Below, one piece after another: positions 7,196 through 64,000 of a stretch of 64,000 nt of DNA (the stretch's first letter is position 1; every line of letters starts with the position of its first letter). The stretch comes from Sipunculus nudus (lineage: Eukaryota; Annelida; Sipuncula; Golfingiida; Sipunculidae). The notes under the pieces are model-generated. The model was given only the letters and a program-made list of their open reading frames with translations, did no database searches and was not told the DNA's origin. The translations under genes were made by a program, and so were the position numbers. Location of the stretch: positions 93,003,624 to 93,067,623 of the forward strand of contig CM049308.1 of assembly GCA_026874595.1 (NCBI GenBank), written 5' to 3'.

Positions 7196-7603
7196 TTAAA
7201 GGTTATCCTTAATTGGAAAAAGTCCATACAATACTGTGTTCAAGGTTAATTGTGGCATTATCACTCCATTTGAATTCATCCACTCCACAATTCTAAAATA
7301 CAGATTATTTGTTAAAAAATATTCATAACAAATGTGTTCCTTGGTCTCTAATTCTACGAAGCAATAAGAACATCGGTAACTGTCAACTAACTTCCATTTG
7401 TTAAGTAAACTATTGGTTGGAAGATAGTTATGGAGTATTTTAAATAAGAATTCCCTAGAATACATATCCAATGAGATTTTTTGAATGGCTCCAAAGTAGC
7501 TCTCACAGCTGATATTTTCACCTGTATGTCTTAACTTGACCAATGATGAAGGTGCAGTTGATTTTTGTTCCACCAATATATTATAAACATATTTAGAAGA
7601 CAA
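7196..7603 (-). pseudogene. LINE C-terminal fragment (L1/Tx1-like, zf-RVT region)
   Basis: Seen: an open stretch of about 135 residues with the order SKYVYNILV, then FKILHNYLPTNSLLNKWKLV, then a C-x2-C...H-x3-C knuckle (residues about 79-98), an aromatic-rich FRIVEWMNS segment and VLYGLFP near the end. Known: this layout (FQyrilHriLpTN..L, CxxC, E..HxxxxC, W) is the zf-RVT-like region after the reverse transcriptase in L1/Tx1-clade non-LTR retrotransposons, where it is thought to act in RNA/DNA binding. Inferred: a truncated, dead copy. The frame meets a stop a few codons upstream (TAA in KGITNIQ context), no RT core is found 5' of it, and it stops at 7196 earlier than intact relatives would. 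Confidence 0.7.
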
Positions 7604-8160
7604 TGATTGTATATTTGTAATACCCTTTTAGAATTTTAGCAAATATATTTAAGTTAATACGTACACAGTCATATGTTACTCATACACGATACCGTTGACC
7701 AAGGGTAGCACCCCCCATGTGTAAATACAGGAAAGCTTCTGGTAATATTCGATTTTCAATAGCACATGCAGTTTTAAATTTTTGAAAGATTTCACAAAGA
7801 ATCATGTTGTACTTTTATTAAATATACAACAACATATGAAATCAACAGAAATTAGAAAAATCAATCCTGTCTTTGTTCCATAAACGTGAATTGTATGAGA
7901 GATATACAATAACACTGGTGCCATCAAAGGAGAGTTGTGTTTATTCTCTGTTGTTTGACAGTGTATACATAATTGACATAACAATACATAATAAAGTGTA
8001 CAAAAATATATGCGTAAAGTGTTCTTCATATTGGTCTGTAAAATTCTTATATTCAGTATACATCTACAATGTTGTTTAATACCTGGTATAACGGATCTCA
8101 CGCGGCAAAGGATATGTTTATATAATGTGTACGATCGTCAAATGATGAAATTTTTTGGCC
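7604..8160. other. AT-rich DNA, no supported gene
   Basis: No continuation of the LINE reverse transcriptase could be found upstream on the minus strand in any frame. Overlapping short open stretches near 7802-8195 lie on both strands and look random. Confidence 0.45.
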
Positions 8161-10515: not shown

Positions 10516-11772
10516 CATAAGATTTTCACTTGCACGGGATAAGAACAAACTAGACTCCATAACCTGTCGTGAAGACACCAGGAACATATCACTGAGGTTC
10601 TACAGCGTAGTCGTCGTTTTGTCTGCGAGAGGGTGTTAAACAAGGGACCTTTAGATCAGGAAATCCTCCTTGGCCCTGGCAGTCAACGTTTAGGAACATA
10701 TACATTGTGCTCACTAAACATAAGTGCAGGTAAATGGTGGTGGTTTCATTCAGGACGAATGTATTTACCGCCATTATCCACAAACAAAACCATACGACTA
10801 GTTAACCTTTTAAAAGTGCCCTGACAGTCACTTGGCGTGAGTGTGTGTCCTGTATTTCTTGAAAGAAGGATGGTCTATTTACCTCTTTACAAGTTCATAC
10901 GGAACACCTGCTGAGAAAATAAGTCCCAACAAGAGCCTGTCTCAAAATGAGCCGCCACTCTATATTTATGCCGCCCTGGGGCATAAGAATAAATGTGATA
11001 CCGCACGTGTCCTAGTACGCCAAGCGTCAGTATGCATAACAGTAAAACTTGAATACGTGACAAACCGGCCACAAGCTGCGAAAAGCGTCACCATCCGTTC
11101 ACAGGTGCACTGTAAATTGCCTAAATTACCTCAGAGCATGCATAAAAAGAAGAATACAAATGTTGACCTTGTTTATATTGATTGGATTCTTATCCAATCC
11201 AATTTCTTAATCTCTGAAACCGCAGCTTTTTTTCTTTTGAACTAATATGAATAGCTAATAGGAAATATATGATAAACGGAATTGTATTTTAGCTATGTAA
11301 TCTAGGCTAATTACTAATAAGACTGCATAAACGTTTATGTTTTAAATCGGATTTCAATATTTCGTTTTGTATAAAAAAATTAAGGTGTAAGTATTCCTTC
11401 TTTTGCATGGGTTAGACAGGTTTTTCTTGCGATAATTTGTGATATTAAGAAAAACTTTGTCTCGAGAAATTTTTAAAAATGCATTTTGACTCCGAAGATT
11501 CACGGGACAGAGAAGTACGGAGCTGATGGTGATTTATGAGTGCTACCAGAACATCATGGACTAATTTACATCTTTTTTTTTACCGTAGGACTTCCCTGTC
11601 CGTGTACGTCTGTATGCAGTGATATAATGTCTTTGTCATTAGTAAAAACACTTAACGTATATAACAATAATACTGTGTTCCAGTGAGCACACACAAAGAC
11701 GCGAATCACTGACAAAGCAGAACGACCCACTGGCAAACACAAAGCCTAGATGTGCATTATGACTTTGTCCCG

Positions 11773-14936: not shown

Positions 14937-17900
14937 CTGTCAATCTCATGTGGGATGTATACAAAATCAAATGTTTTCCCTGAGAGAACAAACACAATCA
15001 CTGATTGTCAATCACTGAGCTGTCAATCTCATGTCGGATGTATACAAAATCAAATGTTTTCCCTGAGAGAACAAATACAATTACTGATTGTCAATCACTG
15101 AGCTGTCAATCTCATGTGGGATGTATACAAAATCAAATGTTTTCCCTGAGAGAACAAACACAATCACTGATTGTCAATCACTGAGCTGTCGATCTCATGT
15201 GGGATGTATACAAAATCAATTGTTTCCCCTGAGAGATCAAACACAATCACTGATTGTCAATCACTGAGCTGTCAATCTCATGTGGGATGTATACAAAATC
15301 AATTGTTTTCCCTGAGAGATCAAACACAATCACTGATTGTCAATCACTGAGCTGTCAATCTCATGTGGGATCACTGGGATGTATACAAAATCAAATGTTT
15401 CCCTGAGAGATCAAACACAATCACTGATTGTCAATCACTGAGCTGTCAATCTCATGTGGGATGTATACAAAATCAAATGTTTTCCCTGAGAGATCAAACA
15501 CAATCACTGATTGTCAATCACTGAGCTGTCAATCTCATGTGGGATGTATACAAAACAATTGTTTTCCCTGAAAGATCAAACACAATTACTGATTGTCAAT
15601 CACTGAGCCGTCAGTCTCATGTGGGATCACTGGGATGTATACAAAATCAAATGTTTTCCCTGAGAGATCAAACACAATCACTGATTGTCAATCACTGAGC
15701 TGTCAATCTCATGTGGGATGTATACAAAATCAATTGTTTTCCCTGAGAGATCAAACACAATCACTGATTGTCAATCACTGAGCTGTCAATCTCATGTGGG
15801 ATCACTGGGATGTATACAAAATCAAATGTTTTCCCTGAGAGAACAAACACAATCACTGATTGTCAATCACTGAGCTGTCAATCTCATGTGGATGTATACA
15901 AAATCAAATGTTTTCCCTGAGAGATCAAGCACAATCACTGATTGTCAATCACTGAGCTGTCAAACTCATGTGGGATGTATACAAAATCAAATGTTTTCCG
16001 TGAGAGAACAAACACAATCACTGATTGCCAGTCACTGAGCTGTCAATCTCATGTGGGATGTATACAAAATCGAATGTTTTCCCTGAGAGAACAAACACAA
16101 TCACTGATTGTCAGTCACTGAGGTGTTAAACTCATGTGGGATGTATACAAAATCAAATGTTTTCCCTTTAGAGAACAAACACAATCACTGATTGTCAGTC
16201 ACTGAGCTGTCAATTTCATGTGGGATGTATACAAAATCAAATGTTTTCCGTGAGAGAACAAACACAATCACTGATTGCCAGTCACTGAGCTGTCAATCTC
16301 ATGTGGGATGTATACAAAATCGAATGTTTTCCCTGAGAGAACAAACACAATCACTGATTGTCAGTCACTGAGGTGTTAAACTCATGTGGGATGTATACAA
16401 AATCAAATGTTTTCCCTTTAGAGAACAAACACAATCACTGATTGTCAGTCACTGAGCTGTCAATCTCATGTGGGATGTATACAAAATCAAATGTTTTCCC
16501 TGAGAGAACAAACACAATCACTGATTGTCAATCACTGAGCTGTCAATCTCTTGTGGGATGTATACAAAATCAAATGTTATCCCTGAGAGAACAAACACAA
16601 TCACTGATTGTCAATCCCTGAGCTGTCAATCTGATGTGGGATGTATACAAATTCAAATGTTTTCCCTGAGAGATCAAACACAATCACTGATTGTCAATCC
16701 CTGAGCTGTCAATCTCATGTGGGATGTATACAAAATCAAATGTTTTCCATGAGAGATCAAACACAATCACTGACTGTCAGTCACTGAGCTGTCAATCTCA
16801 TGTGGGATGTATACAAAATCAAATGTTTTCCCTGAGAGAACAAACACAATCACTGATTGTCAATTACTGAGCTGTCAATCTCATGTGGGATGTATACAAA
16901 ATCAAATGTTTTCCCTGAGAGAACAAACACAATCACTGATTGTCAATCCCTGAGCTGTCAATCTCATGTGGGATGTATACAAAATCAAATGTTTTCCCTG
17001 AGAGAACAAACACAATCACTGATTGTCAATCCCTGAGCTGTCAATCTCATGTGGGATGTATACAAAATCAAATGTTTTCCCTGAGAAAACAAACACAATC
17101 ACTGATTGTCAATCCCTGAGCTGTCAATCTCATGTGGGATGTATACAAAATCAAATGTTTTCCCTGAGAGATCAAACACAATCACTGATTGTCAATCCCT
17201 GAGCTGTCAATCTCATGTGGGATGTATACAAAATCAAATGTTTTCCCTGAGAGATCAAACACAATCACTGATTGTCAATTACTGAGCTGTCAATCTCATG
17301 TGGGGTGTATACAAAATCAAATGTTTTCCCTGAGAGATCAAACACAATCACTGATTGTCAATTACTGAGCTGTCAATCTCATGTGGGATGTATACAAAAT
17401 CAAATGTTTTCCCTGAGAGAACAAACACAATCACTGATTGACAATCACTGAGCTGTCAATCTCATGTGGGATGTATACAAAATCAAATGTTTTCCCTGAG
17501 AGAACAAACACAATCACTGATTGTCAATCATTGAGCTTTCAATCTCATGTGGGATGTATACAAAATCAAATGTTTTCCCTGAGAGAACAAACACAATCAC
17601 TGATTGTCAATAACTGAGCTGTCAATCTCATGTGGGATGTATACAAAATCAAATGTTTTCCCTGAGAGATCAAACACAATCACTGATTGTCAATCACTGA
17701 GCTGTCAATCTCATGTGGGATGCACAAAAACAAATGTTTTCCCTGAGAGAACAAACACAATCACTAATTGTTAATCACTGAGCTGTCAATCTCATGTGGG
17801 ATGTATACAAAATCAAATGTTTTCCCTGAGAGATCAAACACAATCACTGATTGTCAATTACTGAGCTGTCAATCTCATGTGGGATGTATACAAAATCAAA

Positions 17901-18189
17901 TGTTTTCCCTGAGAGAACAAACACAATCACTGATTGTCAATCACTCAGCTGTCAATCTCATGTGGGATGTATACAAAATTAATTGTTTTCCCTGAGAGAT
18001 CAAACACAATCACTGATTGTCAATCACTGAGCTGTCAATCTCATGTGGGATCACTGGGATGTATACAAAATCAAATGTTTTCCCTGAGAGATCAAATACA
18101 ATCACTGATTGTCAATCACTGAGCTGTCAATCTCATGTGGGATGTATACAAAAGAAATGTTTTCCCTGAGAGAACAAACACAATCACTC
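14937..18189. repeat. 83-bp satellite array, ~39 copies
   Basis: The unit runs CTGTCAATCTCATGTGGGAT, GTATACAAAATCAAATGTTT, TCCCTGAGAGAACAAACACA, then ATCACTGATTGTCAATCACTGAG (83 bp by direct count). Common variants are AGAACAAAC or AGATCAAAC, and TCAAATG or TCAATTG. Four units carry a 9-bp duplication TCACTGGGA (15371, 15626, 15802, 18051). A three-unit block of 250 bp is repeated almost exactly, marked by TTTTCCGTGAG at 15998 and 16248. Single-copy sequence resumes at about 18190. Peptides such as SITELSISCGMYTKS are translations of the repeat. Confidence 0.97.
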
Positions 18190-19768
18190 ATGGTCGCTCA
18201 AACGGAGCTATGGCTAGATTGCTATTTGGGCATGTGACCTGCAGTAGCCCTCTTCAGCGATGGAGCACTGCTTATCTTGATAATCTGGGCCCTGTTAATT
18301 AACTCTAAATGAGTACAATGATGCAAATGCTTTCTGCATACTTACCACAAGATGTTGTTGTAAAAATGATTTTTTTATTTAAATGTTAAGATCAGACCAT
18401 TATCAAAACTGTATGTATATACAGCAGATCTTACAGAGGACATTTCGTGTATTTTACTTTTTCAATGCTTCGCGAGGGTTCCATTTTCGCGATCTCACCA
18501 AACTTTTTACAGAATATAACTATCATCATATGAATTGATTATATCAAGTACTATTGGGGCATAATCTTATTAACAAAAATATGGTTCGACAGACAAACAG
18601 AAAGATCTGATATCATTTAAAGTATCAGTCTTTGATATACACGACTTACGAATCTTTTGCGTTCAAGTTTGTCTACGACACAGGGACCTCGCAAGGAAAC
18701 CGCAGTATATCATATGGGATAATTAATTATTTTAATATATATTCTAAAGCTAAACTGATCTAAGGTAACCTGACCATACTTGAGACCTTAAAGATCTAAA
18801 GACTCATCGAGAATCTGACCAGTTAAATAAAGGTTTGTTAAGCTAACCAAATTCCGGTGCATGTGTTATTGATCATAGGGCGGATGAAGAGTTTTGACAA
18901 CCGTGTGCTGTTCATTGTGTATTGTGTACTTTATTTAACAAGTGACCAGCTGAAGCAATGATAATTGTAGCACATGACAGCGTAGTAGGTTCATGTTAGT
19001 GCTTCATATACGCGTGGCGTAACTAGTGTGGTTTGGAGAAAGATGGCTTCTGCAATCTGATTATGTTATATGCAAGTGACTGTTTTATGGTATGTGTGTA
19101 GCCTTGCCTGTCAATATGGGTTTAATTTTACGCTCTCTTTCTCTTTAAGTCATTAACTCCATTATAACATTTAGGATTAGGAAGTTGAAATAATTAAATG
19201 TGTTTTTTGTTCCATCTACAATAACGGACTTTAAAAGACAGCTAGGAAGAAGGATAGATAAAGTGGGATCGGGACGGGGAGCTAATTACCCAACAAAACA
19301 AATTTTTAAAGTCAAAAGGAAACCTTTGGACGGGGAGCTAATTACCAAACACGCACAAAAGTCAGAAGGAAACCTTTGGAATGAACTCTGGCATTAAGGT
19401 ATATAATGAACAGTGTTTTCATAGTTTAGGATCTAAAGCGCTGTCCTCAGTGTGTTAAAAATTAAATTTGCATATAAATTCAGGCACTACTAACATACGG
19501 AATGTGTTACAAAACTAAAGAGAGAACCAAACTACCACTGTCCCATATTTCTAGGAAAACATTAAATGTATAATATATATATCATAAAATCTTACCTAAA
19601 GGTGTCACTGTGACTGGTGCAAATCTATTAGAAGTCAATTCAAGCGTATTTTGTGCGTGTAAAGAAAGTTCCCACGATTTAAAATTAATGATATCTCCCC
19701 ATCTCTTTAAATATATTTCCATTCCAAGAGAAAGCGTGACAAAATATCAATGTAATAATAATTTTCTG

Positions 19769-19770
<2 letters not shown>
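18190..19770. other. Unique DNA, no supported gene
   Basis: No recognisable product. A short direct repeat lies near 19264-19385: GGACGGGGAGCTAATTACC occurs twice about 58 bp apart, followed by AAA-rich sequence and AGGAAACCTTTGGA. Confidence 0.4.

Positions 19771-19828
<58 letters not shown>
19771..19828. repeat. (TA)n microsatellite
   Basis: About 29 TA dinucleotides, followed by a short TTAG-type run (TAGTTAGTTAGTTA). Confidence 0.96.
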
Positions 19829-19832
<4 letters not shown>

Positions 19833-22118
19833 TTTAGTTAGTTAGTTATACAAATATAGAGGAATGGGATACAGGAAACTATTAAATTGGGAGGGATACT
19901 GGGTAAAAACACCAACATAAGACCTATACTTCCAAAGTGCTCTAACATACGATCTGTCTACGCCATACGGTTACCTGTGGGATGTCCGTAGACGAGCATT
20001 AACCGTCTCAGAATGAGGCTGAACACTCGTCGAGATAATGCATATAAGGATTACCGTTTGTCCCTTATTTGTCACGTTCCGAAGGAATATTTTTTTTCAG
20101 TCTGACTGCCTCAAACGGTAATTGGTAACGCGACACTTAATTTGTTTATTTTCTCCGCACACGGCTTGGCTCGATATGTTATTTCCTGTGCGGGTTATAC
20201 CGGAGCACACCTGCACGCGTGTAAGTACCTCGTGTTGCCTTCGCTGCCAACGATAAAACAACAGGATCGTTCAATATAATCTAAAGCTAAATACTGGATT
20301 TATTTTTTTTTTCAGTTTTATTCTGGCCACAAGTAACAATCACAGATTAGTGTATACATGATTATATAAGTATGCATATATGAGTTCTTGATTATTGATT
20401 AAATAAGCTTAATTAACGCCAGTTTCGCTCGAAGTAAAAGGGATTTCTGAATTTGCTAAACAAGGCATACCATAGGGTTTATACTGCCTTATAATACAAT
20501 GTAAACATGAGTCAAAATTATAGCCACATATGGTACTTCTTAGGACAGTTATTTCCCTCAGCTTTTGCAGCACATGGTCAAAAAATCCGTAAAAAATAAT
20601 GTATTGCGCATATGTCAATGAAATTTCTAATATATTACAAAACAAGCGAAAACTGTCGCTCCAGCTCCGCTTGATTAATATACATGTTTGAAACGTGATT
20701 ACTGATTGTTTATATCAAGAGTGAATGTCTAGATAAGTGCAGTATATAAAAGGAAGTCGTTTTTTCAACTTAAATTATCGAAGTTAGGGCTTTTACGGTA
20801 CATAAATACGACATCAGTCATAACACTAACACACACAAACTAAATTGCGTGAAAGTCACTTTGTCACGAACAGCATCATTTCATAAAAAACTGCTGTTTT
20901 CAGATAATTTCCTAAACAGAGACAGGGAATAGCTTTATATTTTTTGCTGTTTCAAATTATGTTTTAAATATTTAATAATACCTTAGATTTATTTTCTTCT
21001 TACATATCTATATTTTATTTGGATACATATCTGTATGTATTATATTCTTCTATACTATATCATATACTATCGTGTTGTATTCTATTGTAATGTTGTATAA
21101 TATCATAGGAAGGGGTAGAGCTGTGACCTGTTTTAGGTCTGTAAGTATTAGAAAGTCAACAGTTTTGCTTTTCTCTAGTGAGAAGAGGGTCACTTGAAAC
21201 AACTTGGTCTCGACAATTTCAGTGTGAATAATAATATTATTACCAATCAAATAATTCAATAAATTAGAAATATCCAACATAAATGGGAAACCGTAGTACG
21301 TAACTATACAGACTATTAATGTGGTCGGGGATGTCAGTGATGTCTCCGTTTTGGTTGGGTACATATTTTATTTTACTTGCTGCATAAGGAAAAAAAGTTA
21401 TGAAATATAAACAATACCACGTCTGGCTTGATATACCGAATGATGGTAGAGGACAAAAATGACTAGTGATGCCTCTAACAAGAATCAATACGATTATCGA
21501 TGGCTTTGACAAGTTTCGATCTAAAATTTGAAATAACCCATGCACTCACACGGGCCCTGATATTGACGCTTTTCGATGTGGAGGCCCCCTTAACGAAGAA
21601 AAAGATTTCAGATTATTCAGCATCAAGGACAGTAATTTCTTACGAAACAGATGTACAAAAAGACTTAATCCACATGACGACATAGACCTCAAATTATACA
21701 AATTTAGAAATCTTGAGAGCCTTCGCCATGTGGGATTCTGCCAATCCGTGCTTGCATTCTCTTATTCGACCCATATTTACATGTTTATTCATGCATACGT
21801 GACTCTACATTTGTGGACAATTTGTCTTCAAGGGTGAGGGGATGACGCACAACTTTTTCCAAACACACACACACTATATATATACCTTTTTCATTGTCTG
21901 TGTGAAACATTTAAATATATTACAACTAAGTATAAGGTTTTAGAAAATAAGGTATTCTGTTTTTCAGTATATGTTAATTTTAAATCAGGTTTAAATATAA
22001 TATATTTCATATTAAACTCATAAATAGAAAAAAAGTGCATAATTTTAATTATGATATATTTCATTTCCAATATATAAATATTATACTCTGAATTTCAGGG
22101 GGGATATATACCCCCATC
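19829..22118. other. AT-rich DNA, no supported gene
   Basis: Open stretches at 20409-20645, 21050-21364 and 21264-21545 (minus) carry no motif I recognise. A GC-richer patch at 20150-20260 ends at GTAAGTACC, a donor-like site, but no acceptor or open frame supports an exon. Confidence 0.4.
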
Positions 22119-25362: not shown

Positions 25363-25698
25363 GGCCAAAAAAAATTTAAGGTATGGTTCTCAGGCACCTC
25401 CCGCATCAATTTTAAACCCCCGCATCAACACTTTTTATTTTGATTTTCAATATAAATTTTCCAATAATGAGCTGCTGCCGCTCCGAAATTTCTTTCAAGA
25501 AGATAAAACCATACAATTTCCTTTGCTTTGTAGTGCTTTTACTTATTTAGCAAAATAAAACTGTTATTTTATTGCTTTACCCTTATCATTTGACATTTTT
25601 ATCGAAACATACCAAAAAATTTAAAATAAAAAAAGCGCCCGCCCGCATTGATTTCTGAAAAAAGTGCCTGAGAACCATACCTTTTTTTTATTTTGGCC
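25363..25698. mobile_element. GGCCAAAA-ended MITE, copy 1 (TTA target duplication)
   Basis: A 336-bp element starting GGCCAAAAAAAATTTAAGGT and ending with the inverse (TTTTTTATTTTGGCC). After the A/T spacer both ends carry GGTATGGTTCTCAGGCAC as an inverted repeat, so the terminal repeats extend about 37 bp. It is flanked by TTA at 25360-25362 and TTA at 25699-25701. The 3-bp TTA duplication and GG start fit the PIF/Harbinger superfamily, but no transposase is present. A second copy in the opposite orientation lies at 61617-61954. Confidence 0.75.
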
Positions 25699-39630: not shown

Positions 39631-42600
39631 GAAGAGTGAGAGACAATCACGAACCCACAGACAGGACGTTCAAGAGTGAGGGACAAACACAAATCCACAG
39701 ACAGGACGATCAATAGTGAGAGACAATCACAAACCCACAGAGAGGACGATCAAGAGTGAGAGACAAACACAAACCACAGACAGGACGATCAAGAGTGAGA
39801 GACATTCACAAACCCACAGACAGGACGATCAATGGTGAAAGATAATCACAAACCCACAGACAGGACGATCAAGAGTGAAAGACAATCACAAACCCACAGA
39901 CAGGACGATCAAGAGTGAGAGACAAACACAAACCACAGACAGGACGATCAGGAGTGAGAGACAATCACAAACCCACAGACAGGACGATCAAGAGTGAGAG
40001 ACAATCACAAACCCACAGACAGGACGATCAAGAGTGAAAGATAATCACAAACCCACAGACAGGACGATCAAGAGTGAAAGACAATCACAAAACCACAGAC
40101 AGGACGATCAAGAGTGAGAGACAAACACAAACCACAGACAGGACGATCAAGAGTGAGAGACAATCACAAACCCACAGACAGGACGTTAAAGAGTGAGAGA
40201 CAATCACAAACCCACAGACAGGACGATCAAGAGTGAGAGACAAACACAAACCACAGACAGGACGTTCAAGAGTGAGGGACAAACACAACCCACAGACAGG
40301 ACGATCAAGAGTGAAAGACAATCACAAACCCACAGACAGGACGATCAAGAGTGAGAGACAAACACAAACCACAAACAGGACGATCAAGAGTGAGAGACAA
40401 TCACAAACCCACAGACAGGACGTTCAAGAGAGAGAGACAATCACAAACCCACAGACAGGACGATCAAGAGTGAGAGACAAACACAAACCACAGACGGGAC
40501 GATCAAGAGTGAGAGACAATCACAATCCCACAGACAGGACGATCAAGAGTGAAAGATAATAACAAACCCACAGACAGGACGATCAAGAGTGAAAGACAAT
40601 CACAAACCCACAGACAGGACGATCAAGAGTGAGAGACAAACACAAACCAAAGACAGGACGATCAAGAGTGAGAGATAATCACAAACCAACAGACAGGACG
40701 ATCAAGAGTGAGAGACAAACAGAAACCACAGACAGGACGTTCAAGAGTGAGAGACAAACACAAACCCACAGACAGGACGTTCAAGAGTGAGAGACAAACA
40801 CAAACCCACAGACAGGACGATCAAGAGTGAGAGACAAACACAAACCCACAGACAGGACGATCAAGAGTGAGAGACAAACACAAACCCACAGACAGGACGA
40901 TCAAGAGTGAGAGACAAACACAAACCCACAGACGGGACGATCAAGAGTGAAAGACAATCATAAACCCACATACAGGACGATCAAGAATGAAAGACAATCA
41001 CAAACCCACAGACAGGACGATCAAGAGTGAGAGACAAACACAAACCACAGACAGGACGATCAAGAGTGAGAGACAATCACAAACCCACAGACAGGACGAT
41101 CAACAGTGAGAGACAAACACAAACCCACAGACAGGACGATCAAGAGTGAGAGACAAACACAAACCACAGACAGGACGATCAAGAGTGAGAGACAATCACA
41201 AACCCACAGACAGGACGATCAAGAGTGAGAGACAAACACAAACCACAGACAGGACGATCAAGAGTGAGAGACAATCACAATCCCACAGACAGGACGATCA
41301 AGAGTGAAAGATAATCACAAACCCACAGACAGGACGATCAAGAGTGAAAGATAATCACAAACCCACAGACAGGACGATCAAGAGTGAAAGACAATCACAA
41401 ATCCACAGACAGGACGATCAAGAGTAAGAGACAATCACAAACCACAGACAGGACGATCAAGAGTGAGAGACAATCACAAACCCACAGACAGGACGATCAA
41501 GAGTGAGAGACAAACACAAACCCACAGACAGGACGATCAAGAGTGAGAGACAAACACAAACCACAGACAGAACGATCAAGAGTAAGAGACAATCACAAAC
41601 CCACAGACAGGACGATCAAGAGTGAGAGACAATCACAAACCCACAGACAGGACGTTCAAGAGTGAGAGACAAACACAAACCCACAAACAGGACGATCAAG
41701 AGTGAGAGACAATCACAAACCACAGACAGGACGATCAAGAGTGAGAGAGAAACACAAACCCACAAACAGGACGATCAAGAGTGAAAGATAATCACAAACC
41801 CACAGACAGGACGATTAAGAGTGAGAGACAAACACAAACCACAGACAGGACGATCAAGAGTGAGAGACAATCACAAACCCACAGACAGGACGTTCAAGAG
41901 TGAGGGACAAACACAACCCACAGACAGGACGATCAAGAGTGAAAGACAATCACAAACCCACAGACAGGACGATCAAGAGTGAGAGACAAACACAAACCAC
42001 AGACAGGACGATCAAGAGTGAGAGACAATCACAAACCCACAGACAGGACGATCAAGAGTGAGAGACAAACACAAACCACAGACAGGACGATCAAGAGTGA
42101 GAGACAATCACAATCCCACAGACAGGACGATCAAGAGTGAAAGATAATCACAAACACACAGACAAGACGATCAAGAGTGAAAGACAATCATATCCCACAG
42201 ACAGGACGATCAAGAGTGAGAGACAAACACAAGCCCACAGACAGGACGATCAAGAGTGAGAGACAAACACAAACCCACAGACAGGACGATCAAGAGTGAG
42301 AGACAAACACAAACCACAGACAGGACGATCAAGAGTGAGAGACAATCACAAACCCACAGACAGAACGATCAAGAGTGAGAGACAAACACAAACCACAGAC
42401 AGGACGTTCAAGAGTGAGAGACAAACACAAACCAACAGACAGGACGATCAAGAATGAGAGACAATCACAAACCACAGACAGGACGATCAAGAATGAGAGA
42501 CAATCACAAACCCACAGACAGGACGATCAAGAGTGAGAGACAATCACAAACCCACAGACAGGACGATCAAGAGTGAGAGACAATCAGAAACTCACAGACA

Positions 42601-42770
42601 GGACGATCAAGAGTAAGAGACAATCACAAACCCACATACAGGACGATCAAGAGTGAGAGACAAACACAAACCCACAGACAGGACGATCAAGAGTGAGAGA
42701 CAAACACAAACCCACAGACAGGACGATCAAGAGTGAGAGACAATCATAAAACCCACAGACAGGACGATCA
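39631..42770. repeat. 39/40-bp satellite array, ~79 copies
   Basis: The unit is CAGACAGGACGATCAAGAGT plus GAGAGACAATCACAAACCCA (40 bp by count). A 39-bp variant reads GAGAGACAAACACAAACCA. Other variants have GAAAGATAATC, GACGTTCAAG or AGGGACAAACAC. The mixture of 39- and 40-bp units breaks any reading frame, so the DRPVCGFVIVSHS-type peptides are by-products. Units of the two types occur in runs and alternations, for example alternating at 41041-41290 and five similar 40-bp units at 40740-40940. Confidence 0.97.
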
Positions 42771-43526: not shown

Positions 43527-44112
43527 CAGTGATGTAGTCAAGTCCACATCATCCGAGTCCAAGTGCAAGTCCGAGTCCTTGAGGTTCAGGTACAAGTACA
43601 CCTTCTTAGAGTCCGAGTTATTTTTGGTCTGAGTCCTAATCAAATACAAATCTTATAAAAAAACTAAATAGGATATTTGCGATAATCATGCAAATTTTAT
43701 GTGAGTTTACAAGCGCCCTTTATTTGAATGTTTAATTAAGTTTAGCCTCTGATGCAGTGCTAAACCTTGGTTTTTATAGTCTTATCTTAATATTCTGTTG
43801 GTAGTTCACCCATGTGCACAGTTTTTATATTATTTGTGACAGATGTTCTACTGGACTCGAAATGGACTTCTCGAGCTGGACTTCTCTGATTTCTCGAGTC
43901 CAAGTCAAAGTCCAGGGACCTCGAGTCCAAGTCCTTAAAAAATCAACATTTTGAAGGATTATTAAGGCCCTGATTTGACAAAGAAGAACTTGCACAGTAA
44001 ATACACTTCGACATAAGAGGAAGGGGTTGTAGGGGAGTGCCGTTGGTTCAGTATTGATCGAAGGTTTGAACATTATATTCTCCCCAGGGCACAACGTATG
44101 TCGACGTCACTG
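43527..44112. mobile_element. GAGTCC-rich dispersed element, copy 2
   Basis: Starts CAGTGATGTAGTCAAGTCCA and carries GAGTCC-type clusters at 43555-43640 and 43850-43940. Between them are AATACAAATCTTATAAAA, GCAAATTTTATGTGAGTT and TTCTACTGGACTCGAAATGG, the same order as copy 1. A candidate right end is GTCGACGTCACTG at 44100-44112, whose reverse complement CAGTGACGTCGAC matches the left end at 9 of 13 positions (CAGTGATGTAGTC). The flanking octamers do not match, so the right boundary is uncertain. Confidence 0.6.
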
Positions 44113-52946: not shown

Positions 52947-55900
52947 TTGCATTACTTTTCTGTGTCTTTCCCTCTCACTTCCTCTCTGTGTCTTTCTCTG
53001 TCCCCATCTCTAGCTCTGTGTCTTTCTCTGTCATCTTCTCTCTGTTTCTTTCCCTGTCACCTTCTCTCTTTGTCTTTCTCTGTCACCTTCTCTCTTTGTC
53101 TTTCTCTGTCACCTTCTGTCTCAGCTTTCTCTCTCAAATTCTCTCCTTGTCTTTTTCTCTCTCCTTCTGTCTGTCTTTCTCTCTCACCTTCTCTCTTTGT
53201 CTTTCACTGTCACCTTCTCTCCTTGTCTTTCTTTGTCACCTTCTATCCTTGTCTTTCTCTGTCACCTTCTGTCTGTGTCTTTCTCTCTCTCCTTCTCTCT
53301 TTGTCTTTCCCTGTCACCTTCTCTTCTTGTCTTTCTCTGTCACCTCCTGTCTGTCTTTCTCTCTCTCCTTCTCTCCTTGTCTTTCTCTGTCACCTTCTGT
53401 CTAGGTCTTTCTCTGTCACCTCCTGTCTGTGTCTTTCACTCTCAACTTCTCTTCTTGTCTTTCTCTGTCACTTTCTCTCCTTGTCTTTCTCTGTCACCTT
53501 CTGTCTAGGTCTTTCTCTGTCACCTTCTGTCTGTCTTTCTCTGTCATCTTTTCTCCTTGTATTTCTCTGTCACCTTCTGTCTGTCTTTCTCTCTCTCCTT
53601 CTCTCCTTGTCTTTCTCTGTCACCTTCTGTCTAGGTCTTTCTCTGTCACCTCCTGTCTGTGTCTTTCACTCTCAACTTCTCTTCTTGTCTTTCTCTGTCA
53701 CTTTCTCTCCTTGTCTTTCTCTGTCACCTTCTGTCTAGGTCTTTCTCTGTCACCTTCTGTCTGTCTTTCTCTGTCAACTTCTCTCCTTGTCTTTCTCTGT
53801 CACCTTCTGTCTGTCTTTCTCTCTCTCCTTCTCTCTTTGTCTTTCCCTGTCACCTTCTCTTCTTGTCTTTCTCTGTCACCTCCTGTCTGTCTTTCTCTCT
53901 CTCCTTCTCTCCTTGTCTTTCTCTGTCACCTTCTGTCTAGGTCTTTCTCTGTCACCTCCTGTCTGTGTCTTTCACTCTCAACTTCTCTTCTTGTCTTTCT
54001 CTGTCACTTTCTCTCCTTGTCTTTCTCTGTCACCTTCTGTCTAGGTCTTTCTCTGTCACCTTCTGTCTGTCTTTCTCTGTCATCTTTTCTCCTTGTATTT
54101 CTCTGTCACCTTCTGTCTGTCTTTCTCTCTCTCCTTCTCTGTGTCTTTCTCTGTCACCTTCTCTCTGTGTATTTCTCTCTCAACTTGTCTCTGTGTCTTT
54201 CTCTGTCACCTTCTTTCTGTGTCTTTCTCTCTCACCTTCCCTCTGTGTCTTTCCCTGTCACCTTCCCTCTGTGTCTTTCTCTCTTACCCTTTTCTGTGTC
54301 TTTCTCTCTTACCCTTTTCTGTGTCTTTCTCTCTCACCTTCTGTCCGTGTCTTTCTTTGTCACCTTCTCTCTGTGTCTTTCTCTCTCACCTTCTGTCCGT
54401 GTCTTTCCCTGTCACCTTCTCTTCTTGTCTTTCTCTGTCACCTCCTGTCTGTCTTTCTCTCTCTCCTTCTCTCCTTGTCTTTCTCTGTCACCTTCTGTCT
54501 AGGTCTTTCTCTGTCACTTTCTGTCTGTGTCTTTTTCTCTCAACTTCTCTCCTTGTCTTTCTCTGTCTCCTTCTCTCCTGGTCTTTCTCTGTCACCTTCC
54601 GTCTAGGTCTTTCTCTGTCACCTTCTGTCTGTATTTCTCTGTCACCTTCTCTCTTTGTCTTTCTCTGTCACCTTCTGTCTGTCTTTCTCTCTCTCCTTCT
54701 CTGCGTCTTTCTCTGTCACCTCTCTGTGTATTTCTCTCTCAACTTGTCTCTGTGTCTTTCTCTGTCACCTTCCCTCTGTGTCTTTTTCTCTCCTTCTTTC
54801 TGTGTCTTTCTCTGTCACCTTTTCTCTGTGTCTTTCTCTGTCACCTTCTCTCTGTGTTTTTCCCTGTCACCTTCTCTTTCTCTGTCATCTTCTATCCTTG
54901 TCTTTCTCTGTCACCTTCTGTCTGTGTCTTTCTCTCTCAACTTCTCTCCTTGTCTTTCTCTATCATCTTCTCTCCTTTGCTTTCTCTCTCAACTTCTCTC
55001 CTTGTCTTTCTCTGTAACCTTTTGTCTGTCTTTCTCTCTCTCCTTCTCTCCGTGTCTTTCTCTCTCACCTTCTCTCCTTGTCTTTCCCTGTCACCTTCTC
55101 TTCTTGTCTTTCTCTGTCACCTTCTATCCTTGTCTTTCTCTGTCACCTTCTGTCTAGGTTTTTCTCTGTCACCTTCTGTCTGTCTTTCTCTGTCACCTTC
55201 TCTCTTTGTCTTTCTCTGTCACCTTATGTCTGTCTTTCTCTCTCTCCTTCTCTGCGTCTTTCTCTCACCTTCTCTCTGTGTATTTCTCTCTCAACTTGTC
55301 TCTGTGTCTTTCTCTGTCACCTTCTCTCTGTGTCTTTCTCTCTCCTTCTTTCTGTGTCTTTCTCTCTCACCTTCCCTCTGTGCATTTCTCAGTCACCTTC
55401 TCTCTGTGTGTTTCCCTGTCACCTTCTCTCCTTGTCTTTCTCTGTCACCTTCTCTCTTTGTCTTTCTCTGTCACCTTCTGTCTGTGTCTTTCTCTCTCAA
55501 CTTCTCTCCTTGTCTTTCTCTGTCACCTCCTCTTTTTGTCTTTCTCTATCACCTTCTCTCCTTGTCTTTCTCTGTCACTTTCTCTCCTTGTCTTTCTCTG
55601 TCATCTTCTGTCTAGGTCTTTCTCTGTCACCTTCTGTCTGTCTTTCTCTATCATCTTCTCTCCTTGTATTTCTCTGTCACCTTCTCTCTGTCTTTCTCTC
55701 TCTCCTTCTCTGCGTCTTTCTCTGTCACCTTCTCTCTGTGTATTTCTCTCTCAACTTCTTTCTGTGTCTTTCTCTCTCACTTTCTCTCTGTGTCTTTCTC
55801 TCTCACTTTCCCTCTGTGTCTTTCTCTGTCACCTTCTCTCTGTGTCTTTCTCTCTCACCTTCTCTCTGTGTCTTTCTCTCTCACCTTCTGTCCGTGTCTT

Positions 55901-56428
55901 TCTCTGTCATCTTCGCTCTGTGTCTTTCTCTCTCACCTTCTCTCTGTGTCTTTCTCTCTCACCTTCTGTCCGTGTCTTTCTCTGTCACCTTCGCTCTGTG
56001 TCTTTTTCTGCCACCTTCTGTCTGTGTCTTTCTCTGTCATCTTCTCTCTGTGTCTTTCTCTTTCACCTTCTGTCCGTGTCTTTCTCTGTCACCTTCGCTC
56101 TGTGTCTTTTTCTGCCACCTTCTGTCTGTGTCTTTCTCTGTCATTTTCTATCTGTGTCTTTCTCTCTCACCTTCTCTCTGTGTCTTTCTCTGTCACCTTT
56201 CTTCTGTGTCTTTCTCTCTCACTTTATGTCTGTGTCTTTCTCTCTCTCCTTCTCTCTGTGTCTTTACCTTTCACCTTCTCTCTGTGTCTTTCTCTGTCAC
56301 CTTCGCTCTGTGTCTTTCTCTGCCACCTTCTGTCCCTGTCTTTCTCTGTCACCTTCTTCCTTTGTCTTTCCCTGTTGCCTTCTATCTGTGTCTCTCATCT
56401 GTCACCTTCTCTCTGTCTTTCCTTTGCG
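52947..56428. repeat. 26-bp polypyrimidine minisatellite, ~3.5 kb
   Basis: The unit is about TTCTCTCCTTGTCTTTCTCT plus GTCACC (26 bp), with 24-bp and other variants (CTGTCTGTC, CTAGGTC, CTCAACTTC). One strand is nearly pure pyrimidine, so stops are almost absent and all three plus frames stay open for hundreds of codons (up to 471). Because 26 is not a multiple of three, each frame cycles through SFSVTFSP, CLSLSPSL and LVFLCHLL types every 78 bp. Larger blocks are also duplicated: the CTTTCACTCTCAACTTCTCT mark recurs at about 53431, 53661 and 53966. Not a protein-coding gene. Confidence 0.96.
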
Positions 56429-57431: not shown

Positions 57432-58850
57432 TCTATTAACTGTCGTGTTTGTGGGCATACATGTTCCCAGTCCACCTGACTTATTGTCATGTTTGTAGGT
57501 ATACATATCCCAAAGTCCACCTGATTTATTGTATTGTTTGTTGGTATACATGTCCCCCAGTCCACCTAATTATTTTATATTTGTGGGTATACATGTTCCC
57601 CAGTCAACCTGATTTATTGTCATGTTTGTAGGTATACATGTCCCCAGGTCACCTGATTTATTGTAATGTTTGTAGATATACATGTCCCCCAGTCCACCTG
57701 ATTTATTGTCATGTTTGTAGGAGTACATGTTCCCCAGTCCACCTGATTTATTGTCATGTTTGTGGGCATAATTGACCCCGATACCAACTGATATGTTGTC
57801 ATGTTTGTGGGTATACATGTCCCCCAGTCCACCTGATTTATTGTCATGTTTGTAGGTGTACATGTCCCCAGTCCACCTGATTTATTGTCATGTTTGTGGG
57901 TATACATGTCCCCGAGTCCACTTGATTTTTTGTCATGTTTGTGGGCATAATTGACCCCGATACCAACTGATTTATTGTCATGTTTGTGGGTATACATGTC
58001 CCCCAGTCCACCTGATTTATTGTCATGTTTGTAGGTGTACATGTCCCCCAGTCCACCTGATTTATTTTCATGTTTGTAGGAGTACATGTCCCCCAGTCCA
58101 CCTGATTTATTGTCATGTTTGTGGGTATACATGTCCCCGAGTCCTCCTGATTATTGTCAAGTTTGTAGGTATACATGTCCCCCAGTCCACCTGATTTATT
58201 TTCATGTTTGTAGGAGTACATGTCCCCCAGTCCACCTGATTTATTGTCATGTTTGTGGGTATACATGTTCCCGAGTCAACCTGATTTATTGTCATGTTTG
58301 TGGGCATAATTGACCCCGATACCAACTGATTGATTGTAATGTTTGTGGGTATACATGTCCCCCAGTCCACCTGATTTATTGTCATGTTTGTAGGTGTTCA
58401 TGCCCCCCAGTCCACCTGATTTATTGTCATGTTTGTGGGTATACATGTCCCCCAGTCCACCTGATTTATTGTCATGTTTGTGGGCATAATTGACCCCGAT
58501 ATCTACTGATTTATTGTCATGTTTGTGGGTATACATGTCCCCCAGTCCACCTGATTTATTGTCATGTTTGTAGGTGTACATGTCCCAAAGTCCACCTGAT
58601 ATATTTACATGTTTGTGGGTATACATGTCCCCCAGTCCACCTGATTTATTGTCATGTTTGTAGGTATACATGTCCCCCAGTCCACCTGATTATTGTCATG
58701 TTTGTAGGTATACATGTCCCCCAGTCCACCTGATTATTGTCATGTTTGTAGGTATACATGTCCCCCAGTCCACCTGATTATTGTCATGTTTGTAGGTATA
58801 CATGTCCCCCAGTCCACCTGATTATTGTCATGTTTGTGGGTATACATGGC
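57432..58850. repeat. 45-bp minisatellite with 180-bp higher-order repeat
   Basis: The unit is TTTATTGTCATGTTTGTGGG plus TATACATGTCCCCCAGTCCACCTGA (45 bp), with a few 44-bp units that lost one T (58690-58820). A divergent unit containing GGGCATAATTGACCCCGATA recurs at 57763, 57943, 58302 and 58482, so the spacing is 180, 359 and 180 bp, four or eight units. As 45 is a multiple of three, the minus strand is open in two frames, reading MYTHKHDNKSGGLGD or CIPTNMTINQVDWGT repeats for up to 170 codons. Array decay to 44-bp units breaks the frames. Confidence 0.96.
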
Positions 58851-59098
58851 ACATCGTGGTTCATCATGTATCCGTTAATTTCAAGTAACTGAATTTGAAT
58901 CAGAAAATCGGTGCATTTACCATACGAATCACATAATTCAATGAAAACGTGTCTGCTGTTACATGTGTCAGTTGATGTGCAGTTGGGTAGCGTATTAAGG
59001 TGTGACCAAAATAGAGAACCATTGCACGGAGGTATCTCCGGGCGTATATACGGAGTATCTCCAGGGGCCTCATGTGGTAAACGCGTAGCCACGTTAGG
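58851..59098 (-). CDS. Candidate cysteine-rich exon or exon relic
   Basis: An open minus-strand stretch of about 82 codons in non-repetitive DNA reads LPNVATRLPHEAPGDTPYIR at its start, with cysteines spaced C-x14-C-x5-C-x9-C-x5-C and two N-x-S/T sites (NGS, NCT). Charged, aromatic and cysteine residues are mixed as in an extracellular domain. No family is recognised. A possible donor (TATG|GTAAAT) lies inside it near 58922; acceptors upstream (CACATGAG|GCC) are weak, and no ATG starts it. At 58850 the frame runs straight into the 45-bp array. It may be a real exon next to the array, or a decayed copy. Confidence 0.35.
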
Positions 59099-60310
59099 CA
59101 AAAGCTAGCGCGCTTTATCTCACCATATTTGGCTTGTCGTAAAACTCAAAGTTAATGGGATTTGGGAAATGTATAGGCAGGAACTGCAGTGAATAATGTT
59201 TGATACTGGTTGCAGTTAGGATCTTAAAATTGTTTACTTTGAAAAATAAATGAACTGATAAACCTTTTCTTAAAACATTGTGGAACTTACCACAATCGTG
59301 CATAAGTAACTTTTTCCATGGTTTTATGTATGTGGACTTATCATAAACTCTATCAGTCTGAGTATACTTGCATAATTTTGCGAAATAGTTTCCAGAATGT
59401 GAAATACCATTTTAGCGAAGCTGTAAGTATGACTGCCTTTAACCGCTCTAAGAAGGCATTGTATTCAGATTTTAAAGACAAAAACTAGATTATCGCTCAC
59501 ATTTATCTGACACCGGTTTTGCGTTCATTCACCAGAATATAGCAGGCGAGGATTACATGCAATACGCGTGTCTTCGGAAAAGGTGTCCACATGCTTTAAC
59601 AGTCATCACCTCAGGGGTAGTTATATTTGACATTTTTCCATATCTCTTTTGTTCTACTGTTATCAATTGCTGGGTATGCATAAATTTATACTTTTTGTTT
59701 CACAATAGGAATATCATGAAAAATACATATACAATATGTGGTTTCCATGTAGTAATTGCAAGAAAAACCGACGTATATAGTACTTTGAACACATTGATGG
59801 GGGAAAAGAGATACCTTCACTATGACATAGATTTCATGTTTCCGGTTAACGGGATAGAAAAATAATGCAGAAGCTTTATAGCCAGAAACTTAAGATACTA
59901 GAATGGACCTCTGTAAGAAATCGTGGACCTTCAACTCCAATGGTCAATGCACTCACAATAAAAGGTTACGTTAAAGGTTGCTTCTTTTCCAAGAGTGGCT
60001 GTGTGCGGTGACGTGGATAATAAATGTTCAAACAGTTGTTATGGTGGAATTAATTATGGGAAGGCCATAACCTGGGAATAGTTATTTCGCCAGTGAACGC
60101 AAAACACAAGTGGTTCTTGTGTAAGTAGTGTAAGCCGAGCATACAACAAGCAATGGAAAGATGAAATTACCCCAGCGCCAAATTGGAATAAACGCGGGTC
60201 CCTCGCTTACGGCATATTATTTATCAAAGAAATGATCCTTTTTAGTTTTCTTTTCAGCCTATGGTTTCCATGAATACTGTGACGCATTTGAACTTCATTT
60301 CTGTTTCCAG
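59099..60310. other. AT-rich DNA upstream of the candidate secreted-protein exon
   Basis: A 102-codon plus-strand open stretch (59557-59865, MQYACLRKRCPHALTVITSG at its start) has no recognised domain and no evident splice context. The region may contain the promoter or a 5'UTR exon of the gene at 60386, but no clear TATA-type element was identified. Confidence 0.35.
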
Positions 60311-60385
60311 ACATAAAATGCTGGTATAGCGTGCCATGACTGAGGAAGCTGTACGTGTTACTGGTCCTGTCAGAATATTCCAGAC
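60311..60385 (+). promoter_or_regulatory. 5'UTR portion of candidate exon, with upstream ORFs
   Basis: TTCATTTCTGTTTCCAG ends at 60310, a strong acceptor, so the coding exon probably begins at 60311 with untranslated sequence. Two upstream ATGs lie before the main start. ATGCTGGTATAG (60318-60329) is a minimal three-codon ORF. ATGACTGAG at 60336, in good context (GCCATGA), opens a 24-codon ORF that ends at 60410, overlapping the main start in another frame. In frame with the main ATG there is a TGA just upstream. Such overlapping upstream ORFs usually lower translation of the main frame. Confidence 0.45.
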
Positions 60386-60511
60386 ATGTCCGCCCCGCTA
60401 CAGGTTTTAGTCCTCCGCACTCTGCTCCTGGTGGCTGTCCGCTGTCTGACCGTCACCTCCGCAGCTCCCTCTACCGCCAGCAGGGCTTGCGCACAAAACT
60501 GCTTCAATGTT
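60386..60511 (+). CDS. First coding exon of a secreted protein (signal peptide), partial
   Basis: ATG at 60386 opens 42 codons that end exactly at GTT|GTAAGT, a full-consensus splice donor in phase 0. Residues 1-18 read MSAPLQVLVLRTLLLVAV, followed by RCLTVTSA, which together make a classic signal peptide with likely cleavage near residues 25-27. The mature start is Ser/Thr/Ala-rich and then has RACAQNCFNV (Cys35, Cys39), suggesting a cysteine-containing extracellular domain continues in the next exon. The exon is clearly GC-richer than its flanks. An in-frame TGA upstream makes this ATG the first usable one. Read through the donor, the frame meets a stop after about 17 more codons. No downstream exon was found before the 53-bp satellite, so the rest should lie beyond the window. 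Protein family not identified. Confidence 0.6.
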
Positions 60512-61475
60512 GTAAGTAAACAGAAGTCATTTTTCTATTTTGCGATAATTTGTACTATATAGAAATACAGGACATATTCCAGAAATATTTAGAACGGCAC
60601 AAACCTGTTATTAAGTAGTCAGCACAAGACGAAGCCAATACGGCGCAAATATACACCAGCTGAAGGATAAGGGACCAGGGTTATCAGAGACACAGGCCTT
60701 TTAATTTGAAGGTTTAACCATTACGGGTTGTCACATAGTTTGTGGCGTCAGCATTCAATCCATCAAGCAGATTAGATGACCAGACCCTTGCAGATGATGG
60801 AAAGAAGATATTCAGTTTGTTATCACAGTTCTACACGATATCATTCTTAAATTGATTTTATGTTTAGTATGGTTCGAAGTCACTTATCCCAGAAAATTAG
60901 TCTAGTTTGTTAATTCATAACTGAATGAGCTTGACGGTATGGTAGTCTGTACTTGTGTACTCTTTCATACACAATTTTAAAATCTATAATAAAATCGATT
61001 TCTCTCATTTTCTCATCGATAATATTAACTTGATATGAATTTTATCATTGAATTATGAATGAAAATAAGACAAATTGAATATAATCATTACAGAAGTGTG
61101 GGTATACTTTCACAAAGGCACTTTTTTGGTAGTTATCCTTGATCATTGAGCGATAAAATTCCTTTATTTTTCATGGGCATAGAAGTGGTCTATAGCTAGA
61201 AGGAATGTTAATATTTTTTAGATATACTATAATCCAAAAACTACAAGTGCACATGTTCCATTTACAACTGAAAAAAAAAACAGATGCCAATATTGAAAAT
61301 AGCCCGTAGAAATGTAAGGAGCCTGGGCAAGGACCGACATAAATAAAATAACTTTTTTTTTTATTTTTCGTGTCCATGTGTCCCGGGTCTCAGTCCATCT
61401 CTCGCCTGTCGTTCATGGTCGCCATATTTTGACAGTGACTCACACATACATCATCTACTACGTTCAAGTGGCAGT
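60512..61475. other. Putative first intron, AT-rich
   Basis: Follows the GTAAGT donor at 60512. AT-rich, with no further exon recognised on the plus strand. The intron would continue through the mobile elements and the satellite to the window edge. Confidence 0.4.
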
Positions 61476-62125
61476 CAGTGATGTAGTCGAGTCCACAACA
61501 TTCGAATCACTTAGGACCCGAGTACAGGTCCGAGCCAATACACATCTCTTGGGAAATTTTTAATGGATATTTTACATTATCATATGTACTTTAACGTTAG
61601 TTTATACATGATCTTAAGCCACATGAAAATAAAATTCGGTTCTCAGGCATTTTTTACATAAATCAATATGGGCTGGCGGTTTTTCTTTATTTTTTATTTT
61701 TTTGTATGTTTCGATAAAAATGTCAAATGATAAGGGAAAAAGCATGATAATAACATATTTATTTTGCTACACAAGTAAAAGCACTACAAAGTAAAAGAAA
61801 TGTGATCCAAATTGTATGATATTATCTTCTTGAAAGAAATGTCCGAGCGGCGTGAACTTAAAACTGGTAAGTTTCTGTTGAAAATCAAAATAAAAATTTA
61901 TTTTTGATGCGGAGGTTTAAATTGACGCGAGCAGTGCCTTTTATTTTTTTGGCCTTATTCGTAAATGTTAAATTTCTTGTAACTCTGGGTGTAGAACTAA
62001 AGTTTGGTAAATCTAGTCCAACTTTTTTTTACAACTAATATTTGAATACCTGATGGTAGTGTGCATATGCATATAAGTTCTTACAGTATGTAACAGAGCT
62101 TTTTTTTATACTGGAATCTAGATGG
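61476..62125. mobile_element. GAGTCC-rich dispersed element, copy 3 (interrupted)
   Basis: Starts CAGTGATGTAGTCGAGTCCA and has CCCGAGTACAGGTCCGAG and AATACACATCTC, as in copies 1 and 2. The sequence is then split by the MITE at 61617-61954. Homology resumes after it with AGAACTAAAGTTTGGTAAAT (compare GTGCTAAACCTTGG in copy 2) and ATACTGGAATCTAGATGGAC near 62108 (compare CTACTGGACTCGAAATGGAC). The second GAGTCC cluster is mostly lost. The right end is not defined. Confidence 0.55.
61617..61954. mobile_element. GGCCAAAA-ended MITE, copy 2 (inverted, nested)
   Basis: A 338-bp copy of the 25363-25698 element in the opposite orientation. It shares ATTTTTATCGAAACATAC, GCTTTGTAGTGCTTTTACTT, CAAGAAGATAA and CTCAGGCA words (reverse-complemented where needed). 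The right end is TTTTTTTGGCC and the left end is degenerate (AGCCACATGAAAATAAAATT). It is flanked by TTA at 61614-61616 and 61955-61957. It interrupts a GAGTCC-rich element, so it inserted after that element. Confidence 0.72.
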
Positions 62126-62552
62126 ACTTTGTTCGGACAACCGGTGTACAACCAGTGTATTAGATGATATATTATTTATAAAAAAGGGTATTAATATCAT
62201 GCCCTCATGCCCCTGTGGGATTCTAATTCTCATTCAAATTATAAACATGTAAACATTTTAGTGGTGCGGTTATTTAATAATAAAAATTAAAGTAAAATAA
62301 TAATTATCGAAAAGGTTTCTTTTTATATTATATACAACCTCATTTAAAAAAATCTAACGCCTTGTTTTAAATGATCAAGTAACAATCGGAAAGTTTATAT
62401 TTGGTAACCGAGTTTTACCGAGTTGGGCTAAAACTAATAAACAAATAAATATAAATATAAAAGTAAAGACCAAAAATGTAGTTAGATTCGAATGATATTC
62501 GATTTTTTAACTGCGATATGACCTCTTTATCCTAACGAGATACATACATGAT
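62126..62552. other. AT-rich DNA, no supported gene
   Basis: Single-copy AT-rich flank between the nested elements and the 53-bp satellite; nothing recognised. Confidence 0.45.
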
Positions 62553-64000
62553 ACATGTATGCCGGTTTCATATGTGTAAAGGTTTCTTTGTCATATCTCG
62601 GCAGGTCATGTTTGCCGGTTTTATATGTGTTAATGTTCCTTTGACATATCTCGGCAGGTCATGTATGCCGGTTTTATATGTGTTAAGGTTCCTTTGACAT
62701 ATCTCGGCAGGTCATGTATGCCGGTTTTATATGTGTTATGGTTCCTTTGACATATCTCGGCAGGTCATGTTTGCCGGTTTTATATGTCTTAAGGTTCCTT
62801 TGACATATCTCGGCAGGTCATGTTTGCCGGTTTTATATGTGTTAAGGTTCCTTTGACATATCTCGGCAGGTCATGTATGCCGGTTTTATATGTGTTAAGG
62901 TTCCTTTGACATATCTCGGCAGGTCATGTATGCCGGTTTTATATGTGTTAAGGTTCCTTTGACATATCTCGGCAGGTCATGTATGCCGGTTTTATATGTG
63001 TTAAGGTTCCTTTTACATATCTCGGCAGGTCATGTATGCCGGTTTTATATGTGTTAAGGTTCCTATGACATATCTCGGCAGGTCATGTATGCCGGTTTTA
63101 TATGTGTTAAGGTTCCTTTGACATATCTCGGCAGGTCATGTATGCCGGTTTTATATGTGTTAAGGTTCCTTTGACATATCTCGGCAGGTCATGTATGCCG
63201 GTTTTATATGTGTTAAGGTTCCTTTGACATATCTCGGCAGGTCATGTATGCCGGTTTTATATGTGTTAAGGTTCCTTTGACATATCTCGGCAGGTCATGT
63301 ATGCCGGTTTTATATGTGTTAAGGTTCCTTTGACATATCTCGGCAGGTCATGTATGCCGGTTTTATATGTGTTAAGGTTCCTTTGACATATCTCGGCAGG
63401 TCATGTATGCCGGTTTTATATGTGTTAAGGTTCCTTTGACATATCTCGGCAGGTCATGTATGCCGGTTTTATATGTGTTAAGGTTCCTTTGACATATCTC
63501 GGCAGGTCATGTATGCCGGTTTTATATGTGTTAAGGTTCCTTTGACATATCTCGGCAGGTCATGTATGCCGGTTTTATATGTGTTAAGGTTCCTTTGACA
63601 TATCTCGGCAGGTCATGTATGCCGGTTTTATATGTGTTAAGGTTCCTTTGACATATCTCGGCAGGTCATGTATGCCGGTTTTATATGTGTTATGGTTCCT
63701 TTGACATATCTCGGCAGGTCATGTATGCCGGTTTTATATGTGTTAAGGTTCCTTTGACATATCTCGGCAGGTCATGTATGCCGGTTTTATATGTGTTAAG
63801 GTTCCTTTGACATATCTCGGCAGGTCATGTATGCCGGTTTTATATGTGTTAAGGTTCCTTTGACATATCTCGGCAGGTCATGTATGCCGGTTTTATATGT
63901 GTTAAGGTTCCTTTGACATATCTCGGCAGGTCATGTATGCCGGTTTTATATGTGTTAAGGTTCCTTTGACATATCTCGGCAGGTCATGTATGCCGGTTTT
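62553..64000. repeat. 53-bp satellite array, continues past window
   Basis: The unit is TCGGCAGGTCATGTATGCCG plus GTTTTATATGTGTTAAGGTT and CCTTTGACATATC (53 bp by count). About 27 copies are present and the array is cut by the window end. The first units (62553-62640) are diverged (GGTTTCATATGTGTAAAGG, TTGTCATATC). Units from about 62860 onwards are nearly identical, with rare TTATGG, CCTATG or CTTTTAC changes, which is the pattern expected when an array is homogenised internally and decays at its edge. Confidence 0.97.

Follow-up and report, generated by a model that had tools for sequence, protein, structure and literature searches.

Does a short open reading frame in a repeat-rich stretch of Sipunculus nudus DNA mark the start of a gene for a small secreted protein? 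The window, by which we mean the whole stretch of 64,000 nucleotides that was analysed, carries on its forward strand a 42-codon reading frame (60386–60511) that translates from its ATG as MSAPLQVLVLRTLLLVAVRCLTVTSAAPSTASRACAQNCFNV. The initial annotation described this frame as the coding part of a short first exon, with a signal peptide, two cysteines and a phase-0 donor, behind a strong acceptor. The ATG at 60386, the 42 codons up to 60511 and the GTAAGT beginning at 60512, in phase 0, match the sequence letter for letter. We consider that 60258–60511 (or 60311–60511) probably represents the first coding exon of an ordinary animal gene with introns that encodes a small secreted protein, and we prefer this reading because of a break in base composition, the strongest acceptor sequence of the window and the rarity with which signals this strong are combined. 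Two parts of the original description, the choice of acceptor and the suggestion of translational control, fare less well.

The composition of the DNA changes sharply at the end of the proposed exon, as the G+C content is 60.3% in the coding part and 25.5% in the next 51 nt. Within 59900–60900, the maximum-likelihood single G+C-rich segment is 60390–60492, which nearly coincides with the coding part; it begins 4 nt past the A of the ATG and ends 19 nt short of the donor. The segment limits that lie within 2 log units are 60319–60415 for the start and 60484–60505 for the end, so that the start range is wide and the fit to the ATG loose, and the exon end at 60511 falls 6 nt beyond the end range. 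Outside the listed tandem arrays the window contains three clusters that reach 60.3% G+C over 126 nt, the candidate among them. This composition break favors a coding exon, and does so independently of the splice-site scores.

The same break bears on whether the frame is interrupted at 60511 at all. Past the donor, 16 more codons remain open and the stop follows after 60559, and an AATAAA is found at 60988, so a short gene unspliced at 60511 could encode a peptide of 58 residues. Against this stand the fall in G+C directly past the donor and the nature of the additional residues, VSKQKSFFYFAIICTI, which are typical of A+T-rich DNA; moreover, AATAAA or ATTAAA occurs eight times in 60512–62553, so that a single one is no evidence. 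We therefore regard an unspliced gene as improbable.

Where would a spliced exon begin? Donors and acceptors were scored with metazoan consensus matrices, and the rank of a site within the window deserves more trust than its value in bits. The acceptor that was originally taken to precede the exon is present as an AG at 60309–60310 behind a pyrimidine-rich tract, and at 10.6 bits it ranks 19th of 3,351 on the forward strand of the window. However, the acceptor CTTTTTAGTTTTCTTTTCAG, which ends at 60257, scores higher, at 15.0 bits, and ranks first among the 7,228 AG sites on both strands of the whole window; it lies 53 nt upstream of the other site and 128 nt upstream of the ATG. Because it outranks all others in the window, 60258 appears likelier than 60311 as the exon start, if the exon is real, and splicing probably does not use the acceptor picked at first. 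The preferred version of the candidate 5′ exon (60258–60511, forward strand), which follows from acceptor rank, would thus consist of a 128-nt leader and 42 codons, and the version drawn in the initial annotation (60311–60511, same strand) of a 75-nt leader and the same 42 codons. Three forward-strand donors of at least 5.5 bits are found between 58849 and 60280 (at 58885, 59000 and 59423; 5.6–7.7 bits), any of which could form the end of a putative 5′UTR exon.

The donor at the other end of the candidate (GTAAGT, 60512–60517, forward strand, phase 0) had been called full-consensus, which is correct for its intron side but not for its exon side, GTT. Because of this departure from the consensus, many GT sites match its score of 6.4 bits: 266 of the 7,748 in the window score at least as high (98 of 4,054 on the forward strand and 168 of 3,694 on the reverse strand), and the two strands together contain 25 copies of GTAAGT itself. 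The candidate donor is good but common.

Could chance explain these elements, as a signal-like ORF, a common donor and pyrimidine-rich AGs that coincide in a non-coding G+C-rich patch? For our strict null, in which arginine is barred from the hydrophobic core, a fourth-order Markov model of the 46,189 non-tandem bases of the window was run 1,500 times, with both strands considered. Its thresholds are the observed values, set post hoc, so that the resulting frequencies are not clean probabilities: a signal-like ORF (uncharged core plus cleavage site) with a phase-0 donor arises in 274 of 1,500 simulated windows. If the donor may be in any phase but an acceptor that scores 10.6 bits or more must lie within 150 nt, the ORF with its two sites arises in 33 of 1,500. 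Raising the acceptor to at least 14.9 bits leaves 2 of 1,500 simulated windows, and adding a G+C content of at least 50% leaves none of 1,500. Earlier nulls, of 60 and 1,000 simulations, let arginine into the hydrophobic core and are superseded by the strict one; in these, the ORF, a donor in any phase and an acceptor scoring 10.6 bits or more came together in 23 of 1,000 simulations and in none of the 60 of the smaller set.

Relaxed thresholds give a different picture. With a core of 2.2, a donor of 5.5 and an acceptor of 8, the ORF, donor and acceptor occur together in 286 of 1,000 simulations, and the real window holds one such combination; at the loosest thresholds (core 2.0, donor 5.0, acceptor 8), 60 simulations contain on average 0.78 such combinations each, compared with one observed. 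Because the loose thresholds are satisfied so often in simulated sequence, it is only the strength of the signals that is unusual, and not their presence. This finding and the 274 windows with a phase-0 ORF and donor speak for a chance origin, as does the fact that the feature was picked by eye, after the fact. On the other side, the best acceptor of the window lies just upstream, the composition breaks at the ATG and close to the donor, and random DNA of the composition of the exon yields a signal-like ORF with donor at only 0.21 per 100 kb of one strand, where 7,895 bases of the window outside arrays belong to 126-nt stretches with 50% G+C or more. We consider a chance origin unlikely, if far from negligible.

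How convincing is the signal peptide? The N-terminus is hydrophobic and a signal peptide is plausible, but not a clean one, as R11 and R19 cut the core. These two arginines bound an uncharged hydrophobic core of seven residues, TLLLVAV (mean hydropathy 2.99), and owing to them the best uncharged 8-mer reaches 2.06, the best 9-mer 1.74, and no uncharged 10-mer exists. According to our script, which applies a signal-peptide rule and not a trained predictor, the first permitted cleavage site is after C20, or after T24 if arginine is tolerated in the core; cleavage after A26, a site chosen by eye, is plausible. The initial annotation counted two cysteines, but there are three: C20, inside the putative signal peptide, and C35 and C39, which form a CxxxC at residues 35–39 and are the only ones C-terminal to the possible cleavage site within the 42 residues. 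The broken core is a further point on the side of chance.

So is the lack of relatives in the collections searched. The candidate peptide matched no family in a Pfam profile search, its sole match among PDB chains has an E-value of 5.2 and is not meaningful, and neither the viral and prokaryote loci nor, by tblastn, the phage records yielded a match; the words of the peptide were not found in literature text either. This absence says little, because such collections are hardly expected to hold an animal peptide this small and may lack entries from the genome to which the window belongs.

If the candidate is indeed the first coding exon of a gene for a secreted protein, we infer the following course of events. 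A 5′UTR exon farther upstream would be spliced to 60258, and translation would begin at 60386. The first ~26 residues would direct the chain to the secretory pathway and would then be removed, and the rest, APSTASRACAQNCFNV, may start a short propeptide or a disulfide-bonded domain, in which C35 and C39 could take part in cysteine pairing. The chain would continue in a phase-0 exon past the satellite that lies downstream, outside the window.

In its general layout, the candidate resembles the first coding exons of animal genes for secreted proteins, as it is short, encodes a hydrophobic N-terminus and would be followed by an intron soon past the predicted cleavage site. However, phase-1 introns are described as being in excess close to the cleavage site of secreted animal proteins, at about position 20 in vertebrates and arthropods (PMC1626468), whereas the candidate intron is in phase 0 and follows codon 42, so that it departs from this tendency. 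A phase-0 first intron is reported for the I2 superfamily of conotoxin-type venom peptide genes, as the exception among the superfamilies studied, with an example in which the intron lies within the signal sequence, after 66 bp (PMC3862624). Compared by gene layout and not by sequence, the candidate shares with the I2 genes a small signal-sequence exon and the phase of the first intron. Its intron, in contrast, would come after 126 coding bp, ~16 codons beyond the possible cleavage site, and any cysteines of a mature peptide other than C35 and C39 would be encoded outside the window. We rejected an assignment to the I2 type, since the phase agrees but the position of the intron (126 versus 66 bp) does not.

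What follows the donor? The would-be intron had been thought to span mobile elements and a satellite of at least 1.4 kb. The satellite is there, as a 53-bp repeat that extends from 62554 to the window end at 64000 and runs off it (27.3 copies, 98% matches). As for mobile elements, the claim is borne out by one interspersed repeat at 61638–61939 (forward strand), of which an inverted copy is located at 25392–25676 (79.5% identity over 303 aligned columns); besides this, a 33-bp stretch at 61476–61508, also in the would-be intron, is shared with 43527–43559. A 33-mer of the satellite had no match in viral contigs.

We searched 60560–64000 for a downstream exon in phase 0 and found no credible one in the window. 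In this region 29 acceptor-like sites score 6 bits or more, three outside the satellite and 26 inside. For the three outside, the in-phase continuation stops after 8, 12 and 13 codons. The 26 in the satellite score 7–10 bits; 23 of these open exactly 30 codons, and of the others one opens 44 codons and two stay open to the window end, for 23 and 6 codons. Nearly every 53-bp monomer thus bears an acceptor-like AG, most of them followed in the frame of the donor by 30 codons without a stop. It is conceivable, at the faintest level of likelihood, that the locus encodes a lineage-specific small cysteine-containing secreted peptide from a gene assembled across satellite DNA, of which the extreme form would be a splice into the acceptor-like site of a satellite monomer. 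The first of these, at 62605, scores 10.0 bits and opens 30 codons in phase 0 with two more cysteines, and if the exon were spliced into it, the C-terminal half of the secreted peptide would come from the satellite. A lineage-specific peptide of this kind would matter only after its mature part is known.

Is the exon still part of a working gene? It might instead be decayed or orphaned, as the remnant of a secreted-protein gene that repeat insertions have cut off from its other exons. The surroundings are repeat-rich, as 24 tandem-array intervals cover 27.8% of the window, and the window offers no credible exon to which the candidate could be joined. Yet the frame and the splice signals are intact, and long introns full of repeats are normal in large animal genomes. 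We hold an orphaned exon to be highly improbable. As the first exon of an ordinary gene, the candidate would represent a gene start, set among repeats, that escapes length-based callers, which is useful for annotation and ordinary in kind.

The leader of the candidate exon contains upstream ORFs, and one of these was originally taken as a hint of translational control. The 24-codon ORF that overlaps the start codon is present at 60336–60410 (forward strand), out of frame with the ATG. We compared it with two kinds of control leader, each placed before the ATG at 60386: dinucleotide shuffles of the leader that starts at 60311, and random 75-mers of the window. An overlapping out-of-frame upstream ORF of at least 15 codons is found in 44% of 5,000 leader shuffles and in 30% of 5,000 window 75-mers. 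Upstream ORFs are said to occur in 30–50% of eukaryotic mRNAs (PMC9122824), and the candidate resembles such mRNAs in that its upstream ORF overlaps the start codon, but differs in that this ORF shows nothing beyond chance. Because an overlapping upstream ORF is no commoner here than by chance, and because upstream ORFs are this frequent in eukaryotic mRNAs, we see no grounds for invoking translational control. A 3-codon upstream ORF at 60318–60329 (forward strand) is absent from the initial annotation; it becomes the tail of a 22-codon upstream ORF from 60261 if the exon starts at 60258. Counted from 60311 there are two upstream ATGs (60318 and 60336), and counted from 60258 there are four.

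Finally, how empty of genes is the remainder of the window? Tandem arrays with periods of 2 to 226 bp make up ~28% of it, and three of them exceed 3 kb (14937–18195, 39632–42770 and 52959–56416). For the Pfam scan we took 119 of the 835 stop-to-stop ORFs of at least 30 aa, mostly outside arrays, namely 50 near the candidate and the 70 longest others, minus one microsatellite ORF (19574–19834) that was dropped. Nine families matched at E ≤ 0.05, WhiA_N and DUF6478 among them, and all seven for which scores were examined fall under their curated cut-offs. These include, with scores and cut-offs in bits, NCU-G1 (16.6, 27), Nuf2 (14.9, 25), DUF6625 (14.8, 27) and SDE2 (14.3, 26.6); Epiglycanin_C (E 0.064) and BNYVV_p31 (E 0.055), which match at a looser limit, were taken as noise. 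Ten further ORFs gave no Pfam match, and an Rfam scan of the window gave nothing at the gathering score; a bacterial promoter scan is uninformative for DNA of this kind. The Pfam scan, which short exons would escape, does not contradict the earlier view that the window is nearly free of genes.

Three of the sub-cut-off matches concern individual ORFs. A weak DAN-domain match at 58784–59104 on the reverse strand (E 0.0056; 17.1 bits, cut-off 22) was considered as a neighboring cystine-knot exon and rejected, as ~0.7 such matches are expected in 119 scans. An ORF at 7199–7627, also on the reverse strand, resembles zf-RVT, the zinc-binding end of LINE reverse transcriptases (E 1.5e-5; 26.0 bits, just under the cut-off of 27.5); it is the best of the seven scored matches and appears to be a LINE-type remnant; it had no relatives in viral contigs. 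The third, a weak match to the N-terminal lobe domain of PqqF at 10841–11242 on the forward strand (E 0.00016; 22.1 bits, cut-off 27), has the best E-value among the matches that are not transposon-like, and is not accounted for by the number of ORFs scanned.
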